This document shows positions 1,757 through 9,940 of a DNA stretch of 9,940 nt, in pieces. A model generated the notes under the pieces. It saw only the letters and a program-made list of their open reading frames with translations, did no database searches and was not told where the DNA came from. Both the position numbers and the translations under genes were made by a program. This DNA is from Promethearchaeota archaeon (lineage in GTDB: Archaea > Asgardarchaeota > Lokiarchaeia > Sigynarchaeales > SOKP01), in the NCBI GenBank assembly GCA_019894875.1, contig JAGXNR010000096.1, positions 1 to 9,940 on the forward strand, given 5' to 3'. The number at the start of each line of letters is the position of its first letter. Position 1 is the first letter of the stretch.

Positions 1757-2743
1757 TTAAGGATTTAGTGTTAAAGTAAACCCATCATATAAAAAGCCCA
1801 TTAGTATAGCGTTTTTAATAACTTGAGTTAATACTAATAATTGAAATTGTTCTTGAATTGCATCCCAGATTAAACCCATCTCTTTCAACTGATTGGTTAT
1901 ATCTTTAGCTACAGTGTCTAAATCATAAACTTCCTCATAAATCCCTTCTTGAAGATTTATGATTTCATCAATTAACTTATCTCTAATGAGTCTGAGTGTT
2001 GTTGTTCCTAGCAAATCTTCCTCATGAAAAAAGAAATCAGTATTTTCTCGTTGAATTAAATAAAAACCGAAATCACTCTTTAATAATTTGTATTTTGCTA
2101 AATAATTAATTGCTTCTCTTGAAACATCAAAAATCTCACAAAATTGATCTAAATTCAATTTATATCCAACAAATTTTTGAGAACTAGATTCATCAAAATG
2201 CCAGTATTTTTTTGCAAAAGCACCTTGACCGAGAATGGAATTATAGAAGATGTAAAAAAGTGATAAATACAGATCTCTATCTTGTTGTAATTCAAAAAAG
2301 TTATCTCCTATTTTAGAGATAATTCTAACAATATGAATTATAAATGGAGCCTCAACATTAATTTCCTTGTAAAAGTCTATTAAATCTTCGAGTTTTCTAA
2401 CATTTTCTTTTAATTCGTTAACTATAAATAACTCATCCTTCAACTTTAGGGGTTCTTCTCCAAGTTTTTCAATACCTCTTTCGGTAATTACATAACCACG
2501 ATATTGTTTATTCGTTTGCTTTTCAGTAAATATTCTCTGTTCTATGTTTTTGTTTTTTCTATGAATATTGAGATATTTAGAGACTGTAGATCTGCTTAAG
2601 TTTGAATATTTTATTAAATTAGTAAATCTTTGTGGACCCAGATTCCTAAGAATAAATAAGATTCTCCTACGATTATCTTCAATATTACTAGATTTTATCA
2701 ATAATTCGTTCTTTAACTTTTTTGAAATATTCCAACTTTCCAT
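1757..2743 (-). CDS. Winged helix-turn-helix transcriptional regulator
   Basis: 328 residues. Residues 22-95 form a winged HTH: helix RRRILFILRNLG (25-36), then FTNLIKYSNLSRSTVSKYLN (40-59) containing the turn and recognition helix, and a wing with the strand YRGYVITERGIEKL (81-94), as in MarR/ArsR-like archaeal regulators. Residues 100-328 are helical with no ligand domain I recognise; about 200-240 includes a second possible HTH-like helix pair (LDQFCEIFDVSREAINYLAKYKLL). The length is well above a plain MarR or ArsR protein (about 100-150), so the C-terminal part probably senses a ligand or mediates oligomerisation. It is transcribed away from the coiled-coil/ubiquitin-like pair across a 194-bp gap, so it could control itself, those genes, or both; this is inference from position. 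The ATG at 2741-2743 sits about 23 nt from a TATA-like element, suggesting a leaderless start. Confidence 0.75.
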   Translation of the reverse strand: MESWNISKKLKNELLIKSSNIEDNRRRILFILRNLGPQRFTNLIKYSNLSRSTVSKYLNIHRKNKNIEQRIFTEKQTNKQYRGYVITERGIEKLGEEPLKLKDELFIVNELKENVRKLEDLIDFYKEINVEAPFIIHIVRIISKIGDNFFELQQDRDLYLSLFYIFYNSILGQGAFAKKYWHFDESSSQKFVGYKLNLDQFCEIFDVSREAINYLAKYKLLKSDFGFYLIQRENTDFFFHEEDLLGTTTLRLIRDKLIDEIINLQEGIYEEVYDLDTVAKDITNQLKEMGLIWDAIQEQFQLLVLTQVIKNAILMGFLYDGFTLTLNP

Positions 2744-2937: not shown

Positions 2938-3144
2938 ATGTCAATTGAAGATCCCAATATACTAAAAAAGATGAAAAAGATTGAAGAAAGGTTAGAAAGA
3001 ATCGAACAACGACTTTCTTATATAGAAAATAGACTAGGAAGATTTCCATCTCACCCACCACCGCAACCAGGACCTTTACCTCCACCAAATCCACCAGGTC
3101 CACCAGGGCACCCTCCAGAACCTTTCAGAATTAGGAAAAACTGA
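2938..3144 (+). CDS. Small coiled-coil protein with polyproline tail
   Basis: 68 residues from ATG 2938; not a family I recognise. Residues 5-34 form a strict heptad coiled coil: hydrophobics at I8, M12, I15, L19, I22, L26, I29 and L33 follow 4-3 spacing without a break, between charged K/E/R positions. With a = M/L and d = I, the core resembles the GCN4-LI pattern known to favour tetramers. Residues 37-61 are Pro/Gly-rich (PSHPPPQPGPLPPPNPPGPP, then GHPPEP), with three PPP or PP-rich clusters, followed by a basic end, FRIRKN. The tail should be extended and polyproline-II-like. Translating PPP normally needs aIF5A. The proline-coding stretch is locally GC-rich against AT-rich surroundings. 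It precedes the ubiquitin-like gene on the same strand by about 150 bp, so separate transcription is as likely as an operon. Clear codon structure supports a real gene; a scaffold or adaptor role is inference. Confidence 0.7.
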   Translation: MSIEDPNILKKMKKIEERLERIEQRLSYIENRLGRFPSHPPPQPGPLPPPNPPGPPGHPPEPFRIRKN

Positions 3145-3295: not shown

Positions 3296-3547
3296 ATGAC
3301 TCAATATAGATTTAGACTTACTGGTGTACCCCCTGATCAAGCAATTAAACTGGTTGAATTAGATCCGAATAACTCAATTGCAGAAATTAAGAAAACTGTA
3401 CAAAGGGAATATAAATTAAACCCAATTCTCGCAATTCAGTTTATATTTAAGGGAAAAGTTTTACCCGATCAATTGAAGTTTGCTAAAATAGGAATCCACC
3501 CTAAAAAAGATGTAATAACAGTTATGGCGACTCAAGCAGGCGGTTAA
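3296..3547 (+). CDS. Ubiquitin-like protein with a free C-terminal Gly-Gly
   Basis: 83 residues from the ATG; a TTG at 3284 would add four (MVEN) but would lie upstream of the predicted transcription start. The beta-grasp layout is clear: strand YRFRLTG (4-10), strand AIKLVEL (16-22), helix SIAEIKKTVQREYK (27-40), strand IQFIFKGKVL (47-56), then KIGIHPKKDVITVMATQAGG (64-83). By eye the second half aligns with ubiquitin: IFKGK matches IFAGK, so K54 falls at K48, K70 at K63 and I50 at I44. The chain ends exactly at GG followed by tandem TAA TAA, so no protease processing is needed before activation. The residue at ubiquitin's Arg72 is Thr79, so a cognate E1 would have to differ from canonical Ub-E1 specificity. 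It could be a protein modifier or a URM1/SAMP-type sulfur carrier; helix-strand spacing and the FxGK motif favour ubiquitin. No E1, E2, RING or Rpn11 gene is in the window. Fold high confidence; function inferred. Confidence 0.85.
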   Translation: MTQYRFRLTGVPPDQAIKLVELDPNNSIAEIKKTVQREYKLNPILAIQFIFKGKVLPDQLKFAKIGIHPKKDVITVMATQAGG

Positions 3548-3619: not shown

Positions 3620-4030
3620 TTAGTGTTCTAAAATCTGATAATTATTAGACTTTGTAATATCTGTTAAATCAGCAGTGAAAGATTTGAATTGGGAGATTTC
3701 TCCATTGAATTCCACAAGATGATTACGAAATTTTTCGAGGAATTTATCTATGATGTTTTCTGAAATTAATTCTAATGTTTTCTTAACATAATTTCCATTC
3801 TTACACTTTAGAACTAAATGGTATCGAGATTTATGGGTATAAAAGAAAAAGATGAAACTATCTAACATCAACATTTTCAAGCTTTCTTTAAAATTTCGTT
3901 TTGTAAATCGGCAGATTATATCAAAATAACTTGCTAATGATTGTTCATCGCCTAATTTATCTTCTTCATTGAAATTATGGTAAAATAAGGCTAAACCTGC
4001 TTGATTTATTATCATTAATTCAAGTATCAT
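3620..4030 (-). CDS. Longin/SNARE-like fold protein
   Basis: 136 residues. The predicted order is strand-strand (LELMIINQAGLALFYHNF, 3-20), helix (QSLASYFDIICRF, 30-42), a three-strand block (SLKMLMLDSFIFFFYTHKSR 50-69, then YHLVLKCK 70-77), a helix (KKTLELISENIIDKFLEKF, 83-101) and the terminal helix region FNGEISQFKSFTADLTDI (108-125). This beta-beta-alpha-beta-beta-beta-alpha-alpha order, opening with a short I-I-N-x-x-G-L-A-L hairpin, is that of longin-like domains, which in Asgard archaea occur in many small proteins often linked to GTPase or trafficking-like modules. No membrane helix or GTPase is adjacent. It converges on the ubiquitin-like gene across 72 bp. Fold assignment is by pattern only; roadblock/LC7 is the main alternative. 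The first Met is used; Met6 is possible. Confidence 0.55.
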   Translation of the reverse strand: MILELMIINQAGLALFYHNFNEEDKLGDEQSLASYFDIICRFTKRNFKESLKMLMLDSFIFFFYTHKSRYHLVLKCKNGNYVKKTLELISENIIDKFLEKFRNHLVEFNGEISQFKSFTADLTDITKSNNYQILEH

Positions 4031-6317: not shown

Positions 6318-6923
6318 ATGACAGAAGATACGACTGAGAAACCAGAGAAAGTCCAAATAGAAGGAATAATTGAAAAAGATAAAGTAAAACTTTTCGATGA
6401 GAGAGCAATTGAAGAATTTTATAATACTTCATATATTGGGACGTTAGAAGAAAATAATGATTCTCAATCAATTTTAGTTTTTGATCCTATAGAAGTATTA
6501 CTTCTAAGCGAAAGAAGTAGAATATTAATATGGGAAGATAACGATAAGAGTAAGCAATTATATGATTTTGAGAGTTTAATGACTTATTTTACTCAATTTG
6601 ATGATCGTTTATGGCATAAATATATAATATATATGGATCTAAGGAAAAGAGGATATATTGTCCGCACGGGGTATGGTGATGGAATAGAGTTTCGTGTTTA
6701 TAAGAGAGGAGCTGATTTTGAAAATGATTCTGCGAAGTATTTAATATATCCTGTATTCGAAGGGAGCCCTATAGAATTAAGAGATTTAGACAAAATGTCC
6801 CGAGTAGCTTTAGGTTCACGTAAAGACTTAATCGTTGCAACTGTAGATAGATTGAGTAAACCAATTTATTACAGTGTTAAGAAATTTCAATTATTAAACA
6901 AAGAAGAGAGTAATGAACAGTGA
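6318..6923 (+). CDS. endA: tRNA-intron endonuclease (EndA/SEN) fold protein, catalytic His apparently missing
   Basis: 201 residues, the length of a single-unit archaeal EndA. N-terminal domain: VQIEGIIEKDKVKLFD (12-27), FYNTSYIGTL (34-43), the helix-forming FDPIEVLLLSERSRILIWE (55-73) at the position of the usual LSLVEALYLLE. The C-terminal nuclease-fold domain is textbook: WHKYIIYMDLRKRGYIVRTG (99-118), IEFRVYKRG (123-131), AKYLIYPVFEG (139-149), SRVALGSRKDLIVATVD (161-177), YYSVKKF (184-190). EndA enzymes use Tyr, His and Lys to cut bulge-helix-bulge introns. Here Tyr128 and Lys169 are in place, but the His of the H-x-K-Y-L motif aligns with Ser138, with no His nearby. It may be a structural subunit of a heteromeric splicing endonuclease, a paralogue with a new role, or an active variant. 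The start ATG 6318 follows a possible TATA (6286-6295), implying a short or no leader. It overlaps the PIN-ATPase gene by 4 nt. Confidence 0.8.
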   Translation: MTEDTTEKPEKVQIEGIIEKDKVKLFDERAIEEFYNTSYIGTLEENNDSQSILVFDPIEVLLLSERSRILIWEDNDKSKQLYDFESLMTYFTQFDDRLWHKYIIYMDLRKRGYIVRTGYGDGIEFRVYKRGADFENDSAKYLIYPVFEGSPIELRDLDKMSRVALGSRKDLIVATVDRLSKPIYYSVKKFQLLNKEESNEQ

Positions 6924-8578
6924 CAGATAAATTTGTATGCGATACTTCAGTGATATTCAATGGTCTCATTCTCGAGCTAATCGAAGATGGAGAATTAGGT
7001 GAAAATCCCGAAATTTTAATTCCTAATGTTGTCATTGCTGAAATTGAATATAGAACTAATATTCAGAAAGAAATTGGATTTTTTGGTTTAAACGTTCTAA
7101 AAACCTTACGCGAGTTAAATAACGCCAAAAAAATTTCGCTGCAAATAGCAGGTAAGCGTCCAACGAGAGAAGAAATAAAAATGGCGCCTGGAGGAGAACT
7201 TGACGCTTTAATAAGAGAAATTACGCTACAAAATAATGCTTCCTTAATAACTGCTGATAGAATTCAAGGTGATATTGGAATTTTCGAAGGATTAGACGTT
7301 TTTTTTGTGAAGGAGAGAGGAATCCATAAACCAGAAGGACCCCTTTCTCTTAAATTACTGGAATATTTTGATGATAAAACAATGAGTGTACATCTCAAAA
7401 GAAATCTACCTGCCTATGCAAAGAGGGGATCACCCGGAAATTGGCGCTTAGAAAAGATTGATAATGAAGTTATTACCCCTAAGCTCATTGAAGATATTGC
7501 TCTTGAAATTATTGAAAATGTAAGGGAAGATGATCGCTCCTTTATTGAAATTGAGAAAATTGGGGCGGTAGTTGCTCAATTAAGAGAATTTAGAATAGTA
7601 ATTACAAGACCTCCATTTTCTAATGATGTTGAGATTACAGCTGTTCGACCACTTGTGAGTTTGAAATTGGTTGACTATTCAATTGATGCAAAATTACAAA
7701 ATAGGTTAGAAAAAGCAGAGGGTATTTTAGTTTGTGGATCTCCTGGAGCGGGAAAGAGTACTTTTTGCGCAGCATTAGCAAACTTTTATTTAGGTCAAAA
7801 TAAAGTAGTGAAAACATTAGAAAGTGTGAGAGATCTACAAGTAAGCCCAGAGATTACTCAATATACAAAATTAGAAGGAAATCTTGAAAATTCTGCAGAT
7901 ATCCTTCTACTCGTTAGACCAGACTTTACAATTTTTGATGAGGTAAGAACTACCAAAGATTTTGAAGTCTATGCGGATTTTCGCTTGTCTGGCGTAGGAA
8001 TGGTCGGCGTTGTTCACTCCTCTTCTGCAATAAATGCAATTCAAAGGTTTATTGGTCGAATAGAACTTGGCATGTTGCCTTCAATAATAGACACAATAAT
8101 CTTTATCGAGGGTGGGGATATTTCATCAGTTTTAGTTATAAAAATGACTGTTAAAGTTCCTTCTGGATTTAGGGATAAAGATTTAGCTCGTCCGGTAGTT
8201 GAAGTACGTAATTATAAGACTCATCAACTAGAGTTTGAAGTCTATTCTTTTGGACAAGACGTTGTAATTAATCCTGTAGGCCCTAAAAAACCACAATATA
8301 AACCAGATCAAAATAAAGGGTTCCAATCTTATAGAAAAAGCAAATCTAGGGAAGAAAGAATCAATCTTGAGTACGATGTTACAAAAGATAGAGTAGTTTT
8401 AAAGGCTTCTCCTCAATATGCTAGCGAAAATGTTGTAGTATTTGCAGACCAAAGCGAGATTTTTACAGGCTCATTAAGTAGAAAAAGTGAAATAAACTTA
8501 TCATTATCAAATAAAGAGGGAAGGAGAATCCTTAAAGAAATTGATAGAAATAAAGATGTCTATGCGAGGATAAAATAA
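6920..8578 (+). CDS. pina: PINA: PIN-domain (PilT N-terminus) ATPase
   Basis: 552 residues. The GTG start overlaps the previous stop as GTGA, so translation is probably coupled; AAGAGAG about 10 nt upstream could be the ribosome site. N-terminal PIN nuclease domain (3-130) keeps the acidic set: Asp8 (VCDTS), Glu41 (VIAEIEYRTN), Asp95 (GGELDALI), Asp113 and Asp118 (ITADRIQGD). A linker (130-245) leads to a PilT/VirB11-type RecA ATPase: Walker A GSPGAGKST (273-281), Walker B TIFDEVR (337-343) preceded by LLLVRPDF, and a His box GVVHSSSAINAIQRFIGRIE (363-382, His366). A basic linker (455-480) precedes a C-terminal beta-rich domain (482-552), where family members have a KH-like nucleic-acid-binding module. 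In Sulfolobus islandicus PINA drives Holliday-junction branch migration and works with the resolvase Hjc. Neither Hjc nor Hel308 is seen here; the partner gene is an EndA-fold protein instead. All motifs are intact. Confidence 0.92.
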   Translation: MTDKFVCDTSVIFNGLILELIEDGELGENPEILIPNVVIAEIEYRTNIQKEIGFFGLNVLKTLRELNNAKKISLQIAGKRPTREEIKMAPGGELDALIREITLQNNASLITADRIQGDIGIFEGLDVFFVKERGIHKPEGPLSLKLLEYFDDKTMSVHLKRNLPAYAKRGSPGNWRLEKIDNEVITPKLIEDIALEIIENVREDDRSFIEIEKIGAVVAQLREFRIVITRPPFSNDVEITAVRPLVSLKLVDYSIDAKLQNRLEKAEGILVCGSPGAGKSTFCAALANFYLGQNKVVKTLESVRDLQVSPEITQYTKLEGNLENSADILLLVRPDFTIFDEVRTTKDFEVYADFRLSGVGMVGVVHSSSAINAIQRFIGRIELGMLPSIIDTIIFIEGGDISSVLVIKMTVKVPSGFRDKDLARPVVEVRNYKTHQLEFEVYSFGQDVVINPVGPKKPQYKPDQNKGFQSYRKSKSREERINLEYDVTKDRVVLKASPQYASENVVVFADQSEIFTGSLSRKSEINLSLSNKEGRRILKEIDRNKDVYARIK

Positions 8579-9014: not shown

Positions 9015-9940
9015 TTACTTTTTCGATTTTTTAAAATATATTAGGCCAATAAGTGAAATGATCAATACTCCAATAACAAAAGGTGTATTGTAACCTGGAA
9101 CTGATGAAGCATTATCATCACTAGGAGCACCTTCAGTATAATAGTGGACCAATTGATATGAGAAACCTTCATCTGGTTCAATATTTTGTATAAAGAGACC
9201 CCATGAAAATTTATGGTCCATCCAATCATTAGCATCGGAGATACATGCAACTGTACCCTCGTATGTCATACTTTCACCATAAGTGACTTTATTGGCCCAA
9301 GCACAACCAAAACCTACACTTATATCAAGTCCAAAGCCTCCTGCTTGTATACCCGCTGAGAAAATTAATTCCATTGAATGTTCCTTTTCAACAGAAACCG
9401 CATTTTCCCTTGTATATTTTAATGTACTTCCGCAGGCGGTACCAGTCCCCTGTGGTACTTCTATCGTGTCAATAATCTTCACAACACCTTCTAATGCATT
9501 TACTTCTTCTCGAGTAGGATAAGTTCCAGGTTTTCCTGGTGTATGAATATATGTTTCAGAACCAATAGAATTTGTAGAATTAGCACTATTGTATAAAGAC
9601 TCTGTCATACTATAGATAGAGACTTTTAGAGGTATATCTATTGATATATTTTTTCCTATCATTTCTGACTTTGGATGCTTTATTACCGTGTATACATAAG
9701 ATTCATAATCAACCGTATCACAAATAATCTGATTTTCCATATGACCAGATGAATATCGTACACCTATCGTTTCGGTTTGTGTAGTAGTTTGAGTTTGAGA
9801 AAATTGATAATTGGCTTCTAAGCTAGCTTTAACTTTAAACCCTGTGCCAAATAATTCAAATCCGGTTTCAAAAGAAACTCTAATTCCCGCCATAACACTA
9901 AATCTTTCTGTCACATCTATCGAAGTAGACTCTTCTTTTG
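9015..9940 (-). CDS. Secreted beta-rich protein with C-terminal membrane anchor (partial, 5' end outside window)
   Basis: The frame is open to the right edge (first full codon at 9936-9938, reading KEESTSIDVTERF), so the in-frame GTG at 9914 is probably not the start; 307 residues are visible. Residues 13-45 alternate polar and nonpolar residues (IRVSFETGFELFGTGFKV), followed by Thr/Gln-rich FSQTQTTTQTET (46-57), and a second such sheet lies at 188-215 (MELIFSAGIQAGGFGLDISV). Four Cys (73, 169, 212, 232) suggest an extracytoplasmic protein. The end is VPGYN (280-284), a hydrophobic helix TPFVIGVLIISLIGLIYF (285-302) and KKSKK. This P-G-[FY]/helix/basic layout resembles archaeal PGF-CTERM-like surface anchors. 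The amphipathic, Thr-rich pattern recalls ETX/MTX2-type beta-pore-forming proteins, but this is only a visual impression. A signal peptide would lie outside the window. Confidence 0.75.
   Translation of the reverse strand, partial: KEESTSIDVTERFSVMAGIRVSFETGFELFGTGFKVKASLEANYQFSQTQTTTQTETIGVRYSSGHMENQIICDTVDYESYVYTVIKHPKSEMIGKNISIDIPLKVSIYSMTESLYNSANSTNSIGSETYIHTPGKPGTYPTREEVNALEGVVKIIDTIEVPQGTGTACGSTLKYTRENAVSVEKEHSMELIFSAGIQAGGFGLDISVGFGCAWANKVTYGESMTYEGTVACISDANDWMDHKFSWGLFIQNIEPDEGFSYQLVHYYTEGAPSDDNASSVPGYNTPFVIGVLIISLIGLIYFKKSKK

Follow-up and report, generated by a model that had tools for sequence, protein, structure and literature searches.

A Gly-Gly-tailed protein of predicted ubiquitin fold in Lokiarchaeia, its likely E1 and E2 partners and candidate introns in genes of relatives

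The locus and its ubiquitin-like protein

The window, by which we mean the whole stretch of 9,940 nucleotides analysed here, carries a gene for a small ubiquitin-like protein (Ubl) in the setting given below; the fractions are counts over those loci of relatives that reach the position concerned.

1757..2743, minus strand: winged-HTH protein (HTH_5, 8.6e-06), divergent from Ubl and its most constant neighbour (41/55)
2938..3144, plus strand: coiled-coil/proline-rich protein of 68 aa, co-directional and upstream, a neighbour only (21/62)
3296..3547, plus strand: gene for the ubiquitin-fold protein, a putative modifier of 83 aa with the C-terminus ATQAGG
3518..3519, plus strand: site, between the first and second bases of codon 75, of a 30-nt insert in two relatives (L036 and L055); the window copy is uninterrupted
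3620..4030, minus strand: convergent protein of 136 aa, called a longin protein in the first-pass annotation, with no Pfam family over the cut-off (11/65)
6318..6923, plus strand: EndA, the tRNA-splicing endonuclease (PF01974, 7e-19), a neighbour within the conserved block (24/44)
6920-8578, plus strand: protein with a PIN domain and a P-loop ATPase, adjoining EndA in the conserved block
9015-9914, minus strand: protein whose C-terminal stretch is hydrophobic; its ETX/MTX2 match is weak (E 0.0032) and falls short of the cut-off

The product of the gene at 3296..3547 is of ubiquitin type, and its Gly-Gly tail is conserved. The last Lys is 12 residues away from the C-terminus, so that trypsin would leave a remnant of ~12 residues on any conjugate. 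It matches the Pfam ubiquitin family PF00240 with 36.9 bits against a curated cut-off of 25.4, and its predicted structure has the ubiquitin fold, with 21% identity to eukaryotic ubiquitin in the structural alignment. The first-pass annotation, made by eye from the DNA, had described a free-standing ubiquitin-like protein ending at Gly-Gly, and this description is confirmed; it had also held that a fold other than β-grasp, a closer similarity to sulfur carriers, or homologues without the terminal glycines would speak against it. As stated, the predicted fold is that of ubiquitin; the ThiS, MoaD and Urm1 families are absent among the Pfam matches of the protein up to E<=1; and Gly-Gly is kept in the homologues, the rare exceptions among the metagenomic proteins listed as matches being P0116 and P0038, which end in GV.

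In all, 190 homologues were found, some of them already named ubiquitin-like in databases, together with 68 loci in the genomes of relatives labelled Lokiarchaeota, Lokiarchaeia, Sigynarchaeota, Helarchaeota, Prometheoarchaeum, Sigynarchaeum or Harpocratesius; it is to such relatives of the window's organism that all our genome-level statements refer. One of the homologues, P0076, belongs to Lokiarchaeum ossiferum. Across 227 Asgard genomes, Ubl is present in 65/83 of one class, the Lokiarchaeia (some of these matches being fragments at contig ends), and in 0/144 of the others. An alignment of 34 sequences has 15 invariant columns, and AGG is kept in 60/60 distinct full-length genes, a count from which nine partial or interrupted loci are excluded. 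The stop codon directly follows the glycines in 19/60 of these genes, whereas the other 41/60 encode a tail of 1–14 residues (one residue, n=35; two, n=4; 7, n=1; 14, n=1). Such tails imply a protease, and the fact that the residues behind Gly-Gly vary between relatives is as expected if a protease trims them. Additionally, 16/60 distinct genes (L002, L008 and L021, for example) appear to start with ATT or ACG, there being an in-frame stop upstream and no ATG, GTG or TTG in between, which suggests non-standard initiation.

The neighbourhood of Ubl is conserved. Beyond the features listed, NadA and HycI recur in 29/45 and 30/48 of the loci that reach, and a ThiF-like protein (PF00899, ~245 aa) lies ~8 kb upstream in 20/36, with several other genes standing between it and Ubl. 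No match to UQ_con, JAB or RING was found among the 10 window proteins scanned, and thus no operon of the Caldiarchaeum type is seen. We have set the neighbourhood aside as a clue to function, as it is conserved and yet lacks an E1-E2 cascade; the block of HTH, NadA, ThiF-like, HycI and EndA genes looks like ordinary synteny. The coiled-coil and longin neighbours, to which the first-pass annotation attached some meaning, stand beside Ubl in only the minority of loci given above and are not upheld as meaningful partners.

Candidate E1 and E2 partners

The search for E1, E2 and JAMM genes that the first-pass annotation had proposed was productive in relatives, since PF00240, UQ_con, ThiF and JAB each occur in 11/11 class genomes scanned. 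In genome G001, the loci of which were read, there are three enzyme sets: operon A, comprising ubiquitin, E1a, E2a and a JAMM protein; set C, comprising a JAMM protein, E1c, E2c and a divergent 85-aa protein that ends in IGGS and matches nothing in Pfam at E<=0.01; and pair B, comprising an E1b of 530 aa and an E2b of 173 aa. The operon-type ubiquitins of this genome (L163, and a second cluster at L165:3504-3836) belong to PF00240 and occur in the same genomes as Ubl, but they differ from it in their length (108–110 aa), their N-terminal extension, their AG end in place of GG, and their position beside E1, E2 and JAMM genes. The earlier view, in which an Asgard genome has Ubl as an orphan modifier of ubiquitin type, holds in that Ubl is distinct from the ubiquitin of the E1-E2-JAMM operon in such relatives.

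Pair B is a characteristic of the class. E1b was found in 69/83 class genomes and 0/144 others (E<=1e-50), and, among the matches listed, proteins of the E2b type (>=65% identity) occur in at least 63/83 class genomes, whereas E2s outside the class have at most 47% identity to E2b. Again among the matches listed, the two genes lie ~6 kb or less apart in 46/59 genomes with both, and no ubiquitin frame was found in 24 E1b/E2b loci searched with the Ubl family profile and the operon ubiquitin. The solved chain closest to E1b is UBA1 (8.9e-42), whereas for E1a it is a SUMO E1 subunit (1.3e-38). All 17 E1b sequences compared keep GxGALGC, two CxxC pairs and ACT-x-KGxP unchanged; the last of these we take, from eukaryotic E1s, to be the site of the catalytic Cys. 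The AlphaFold model of E1b is middling (pLDDT 74.5, pTM 0.47) and was therefore used only for broad structural matches; it aligns with E1 chains (the SUMO E1, UBA1 and UBA6) up to the C-terminal end. In contrast to UBA1 and UBA3, E1b has one adenylation domain in ~530 aa. A related protein of 883 aa in the Sigynarchaeum genome G080 (L276:1856-4504, minus strand) combines a SAE1-like half (residues 173-372) with a UBA3-like half (461-846) in one chain, which is the two-domain plan of eukaryotic UBA1. In Helarchaeota, a cluster at L262:1859-6702 brings together E1b, E2b, a JAMM protein and an E2/RWD-like protein whose end is rich in Cys, but it contains no gene for ubiquitin.

Ubl is probably served by an E1 and an E2 encoded elsewhere in the genome, and its likeliest partners are E1b and E2b, which have the same class range. 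Two genomes bear on this. Harpocratesius repetitus (G007) has one PF00240 match, which is Ubl, one UQ_con match, which is E2b, and one E1b, all on a single 4.36-Mb contig; we had also considered a single JAMM protein as a further tie in this genome, but HxHx7SxxD, presumably the JAMM pattern, is intact in two of the three JAB proteins there, and the idea was discarded. In Lokiarchaeota Bin_342 (L043), a single cluster of genes read in the same direction encodes Ubl, a 379-aa protein that carries a second Ubl domain, and E2b; the last two genes overlap, and E2b is the only member of the E1/E2/JAMM/RING set there. For the most part, Ubl lies far from E1b and E2b in genomes.

The shared range is itself confounded by kinship, as all three families are common to one class. 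Within the class, 56 of the 83 genomes have both Ubl and E1b, 9 have Ubl only, 13 have E1b only and 5 have neither; this co-occurrence is not significant (Fisher p 0.17), which may reflect incomplete assemblies, and since it lends the pairing no support we have dropped it as proof. Furthermore, both E1b and E2b are missing from five genomes with Ubl (G005, G026, G043, G051 and G075), so that the pairing is likely, not proven. The first-pass annotation had argued for a dedicated E1 from Thr79, which Ubl has at the place of Arg72 of eukaryotic ubiquitin: a class-restricted E1b/E2b pair without a ubiquitin of its own does exist, and its pairing with Ubl is drawn from distribution and a few genomes.

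On balance, we regard it as probable that Ubl is a conjugated ubiquitin-type modifier of the Lokiarchaeia served by E1b and E2b, and that the inserts in the genes of relatives, described below, are introns. We infer the action of E1b and E2b on Ubl, its conjugation and the identity of the JAMM protein that acts upon it. In such a cascade, a JAMM metalloprotease would trim tailed Ubl precursors to ATQAGG, whereupon the UBA1-like E1b (~530 aa) would adenylate the terminal Gly and move Ubl onto its catalytic Cys; E2b, with its HPN motif and Cys, would then take Ubl and hand it on to lysines, whether or not an E3 takes part, and a JAMM protease would remove it again. Where relatives have inserts in the Ubl, E1b or E2b genes, EndA would cut the transcript at a bulge-helix-bulge (BHB) and an RNA ligase would join the ends.

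Conjugation might instead proceed through the classical Lokiarchaeal operon enzymes E1a and E2a, alone or alongside E1b and E2b. This would suit G005, which has two Ubl genes as well as an operon-A type E1 and E2, and for which E1b and E2b are, as noted, missing; moreover, given the AG end of the operon ubiquitin in G001, a protein ending in GG might be the better substrate. It fits poorly with G007, which has no second UQ_con or PF00240 match to go with its Ubl, E1b and E2b, and with G003, which likewise has Ubl and E1b/E2b, with one PF00240 match and, above the cut-off, no further UQ_con match. We therefore consider this route unlikely, although a serious contender.

Another option is that Ubl is never conjugated, and acts as a free adaptor in the manner of the Ubl domains of GET5/MDY2 or RAD23. 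Indeed, the best matches of the single sequence in the PDB are the MDY2/GET5 Ubl domains (7.2e-05); however, the family profile places polyubiquitin on top (1e-11, a score for a four-repeat chain, each repeat of which scores low), and a free-standing protein with invariant glycines and variable residues behind them has the pattern of a processed modifier, making an adaptor very improbable. Least probable of all is a role for Ubl in carrying sulfur, like MoaD, ThiS, Urm1 or SAMP, with the ThiF-like protein ~8 kb upstream as the charging enzyme, for, despite the recurrence of that protein at the same place, several genes separate it from Ubl, G001 has no ThiF match near Ubl, and Ubl ranks with ubiquitin by sequence and structure and has no ThiS/MoaD/Urm1 match in Pfam up to E 1 (the 50 structural matches listed also hold no ThiS/MoaD/Urm1 chain, a listing that excludes nothing).

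Short inserts in the genes of relatives

Enzymes of the EndA class, tRNA-splicing endonucleases, cut bulge-helix-bulge motifs. In L036, the Ubl gene is interrupted between DVI and TVM by 30 nt with an in-frame TAG, the removal of which brings back DVITV; L055 has a different 30 nt at the same point. Of the 120 metagenomic proteins listed, 14 have 10–12 variable residues there, P0052 stops at this point, and P0010 and P0013 diverge after Q80. Insert-tolerant protein-to-DNA alignment found 12 internal inserts of 29–32 nt in 10/50 distinct E2b genes, near codons 60-62, 69, 131, 134 and 150 (one gene carries three), and one insert in 61 Ubl genes, L055 being outside the coverage limit. Six of the 12 in E2b (29, 31 or 32 nt) break the frame. 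For E1b, a 30-nt insert at codon 44 is present in 4/10 loci aligned. Expressed per genome, inserts occur in at least 9/63 for E2b (leaving out G056, the gene of which is broken), at least 4/69 for E1b and at least 2/65 for Ubl; these are lower bounds, as stops alone miss in-frame inserts.

The usual layout is an exon 4-mer, a 3-nt bulge, a hairpin, a complementary intron 4-mer and a further 3-nt bulge. With borders set by protein homology and equivalent shifts allowed, all four exon–intron pairs form in 11/13 inserts, compared with 2.4% of 8008 shifted placements, although the 13 are not all independent, some being from related genomes. The poor fits are L243 at codon 131 (1 of 4) and L246 (2 of 4, register chosen); the E1b inserts reach 3 or 4 of 4 pairs (register searched). 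The pairing 4-mers covary at codon 134 (ACGT:GCGT, ATAT:GTGT and ATGT:GCAT), and the hairpins differ. The minimum-energy free fold displays the motif for L242 and L247, whereas in those of L036 and L255 the hairpin and the outer helix form but the internal loops are larger. These features lead us to read the 29–32-nt inserts in the Ubl, E1b and E2b genes of relatives as putative BHB introns cut by EndA. In the Ubl genes concerned the insert precedes the Gly-Gly tail, which, if it is an intron, would be made only after splicing.

Might the inserts be assembly errors, decaying copies or translated insertions? The data come from MAGs, some inserts are in frame and free of stops, and two pair poorly, as noted. 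Nevertheless, identical sites recur across genomes with different hairpins, the pairing far exceeds that of shifted placements, and both E2b exons remain near-perfect protein sequence despite the broken frames. As partial controls, E2a and cbf5 of the same genomes are free of internal stops (46 class E2a-type sequences, among the matches listed; the matched part of cbf5 in the 80/83 class genomes with a match). We thus think such origins improbable. On our reading, several E2b genes merely seem disrupted, the insert having been taken for coding sequence.

When 55 families were scanned across the collected loci, BHB-like inserts of 25–40 nt turned up in E2b, E1b, Ubl and one hexapeptide transferase. 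The scan was uneven in depth, and most interrupted loci had been chosen for showing stops, so that its rates give no prevalence and a concentration of inserts in the ubiquitin cascade is a lead only. The hexapeptide transferase gene, ~6.8 kb upstream of Ubl in L001 and L009, has at codon 87 an insert of 31 nt that breaks the frame and shows BHB-like pairing, which rules out a confinement of such inserts to the cascade. A number of candidates were set aside: inserts within the first 8 codons, where starts are uncertain (10 in E2b and 1 in JABa in one alignment); a 23-nt insert in the E2a gene of L121 (one of 6 E2a genes) and a 16-nt insert at codon 387 of E1b in L251, neither of them BHB-like; the E2b gene of L245, broken at a contig end; the Ubl copy of L068/L259, with an apparent break at codon 31, the 5' part of which is unalignable and which we take as decayed; and five 57-nt in-frame gaps in the HTH family, which met a loose pairing rule and are taken as ordinary indels between distant sequences.

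Comparison with described systems and possible significance

No known relatives of eukaryotes are closer than the Asgard archaea. Should a ubiquitin specific to one of their classes prove to have an E1 and E2 of its own, unlinked from it in the genome, parallel cascades would already have arisen in archaea. In the Ubl loci read, the head-to-tail poly-ubiquitin genes of eukaryotes are not seen. Asgard ubiquitin systems are already in print (PMC6043591, PMC5654768, PMC11188069). The ubiquitin of Caldiarchaeum subterraneum, which has an operon with E1, E2, RING and Rpn11 genes, is reported to be made in a precursor form that a JAMM enzyme of the Rpn11 type cleaves behind Gly-Gly (PMC6043591, PMC5654768), and by analogy an Rpn11-type enzyme may trim the tails of Ubl. 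Genomes with Ubl resemble Caldiarchaeum in having E1 and E2 homologues, but Ubl differs in lying outside any E1/E2/JAMM operon and in its tails of 0–2 residues in 58/60 genes. No pairing of Ubl with an E1 or E2 was found in the titles and abstract openings searched, which took in no bioRxiv and few subscription papers.

Archaeal mRNA introns are reported to have been first shown in cbf5 (PMC2738675). The inserts described here resemble that intron in having a protein-coding host gene and a predicted BHB motif in the pre-mRNA (PMC2738675, PMC6379350), and differ from it in their length (29–32 nt), in interrupting ubiquitin-cascade genes at several sites per family, and in occurring in Asgard archaea; a literature search of the same scope found nothing on introns in Asgard protein genes. 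The broader proposition, that Ubl, E1b and E2b form a separate Lokiarchaeial cascade, the core genes of which have repeatedly gained BHB introns of ~30 nt, so that the making of modifier or enzyme depends on splicing in several lineages, is in our judgement evenly balanced between true and false. Were it correct, the splicing of mRNA by the tRNA-splicing machinery would be a possible control point for protein conjugation. Short inserts of this kind also hide real genes from annotation. Lastly, several genomes (G077, G035, G078, G022 and others) have Ubl-related domains embedded in much longer open frames, of 389 to 4221 aa.
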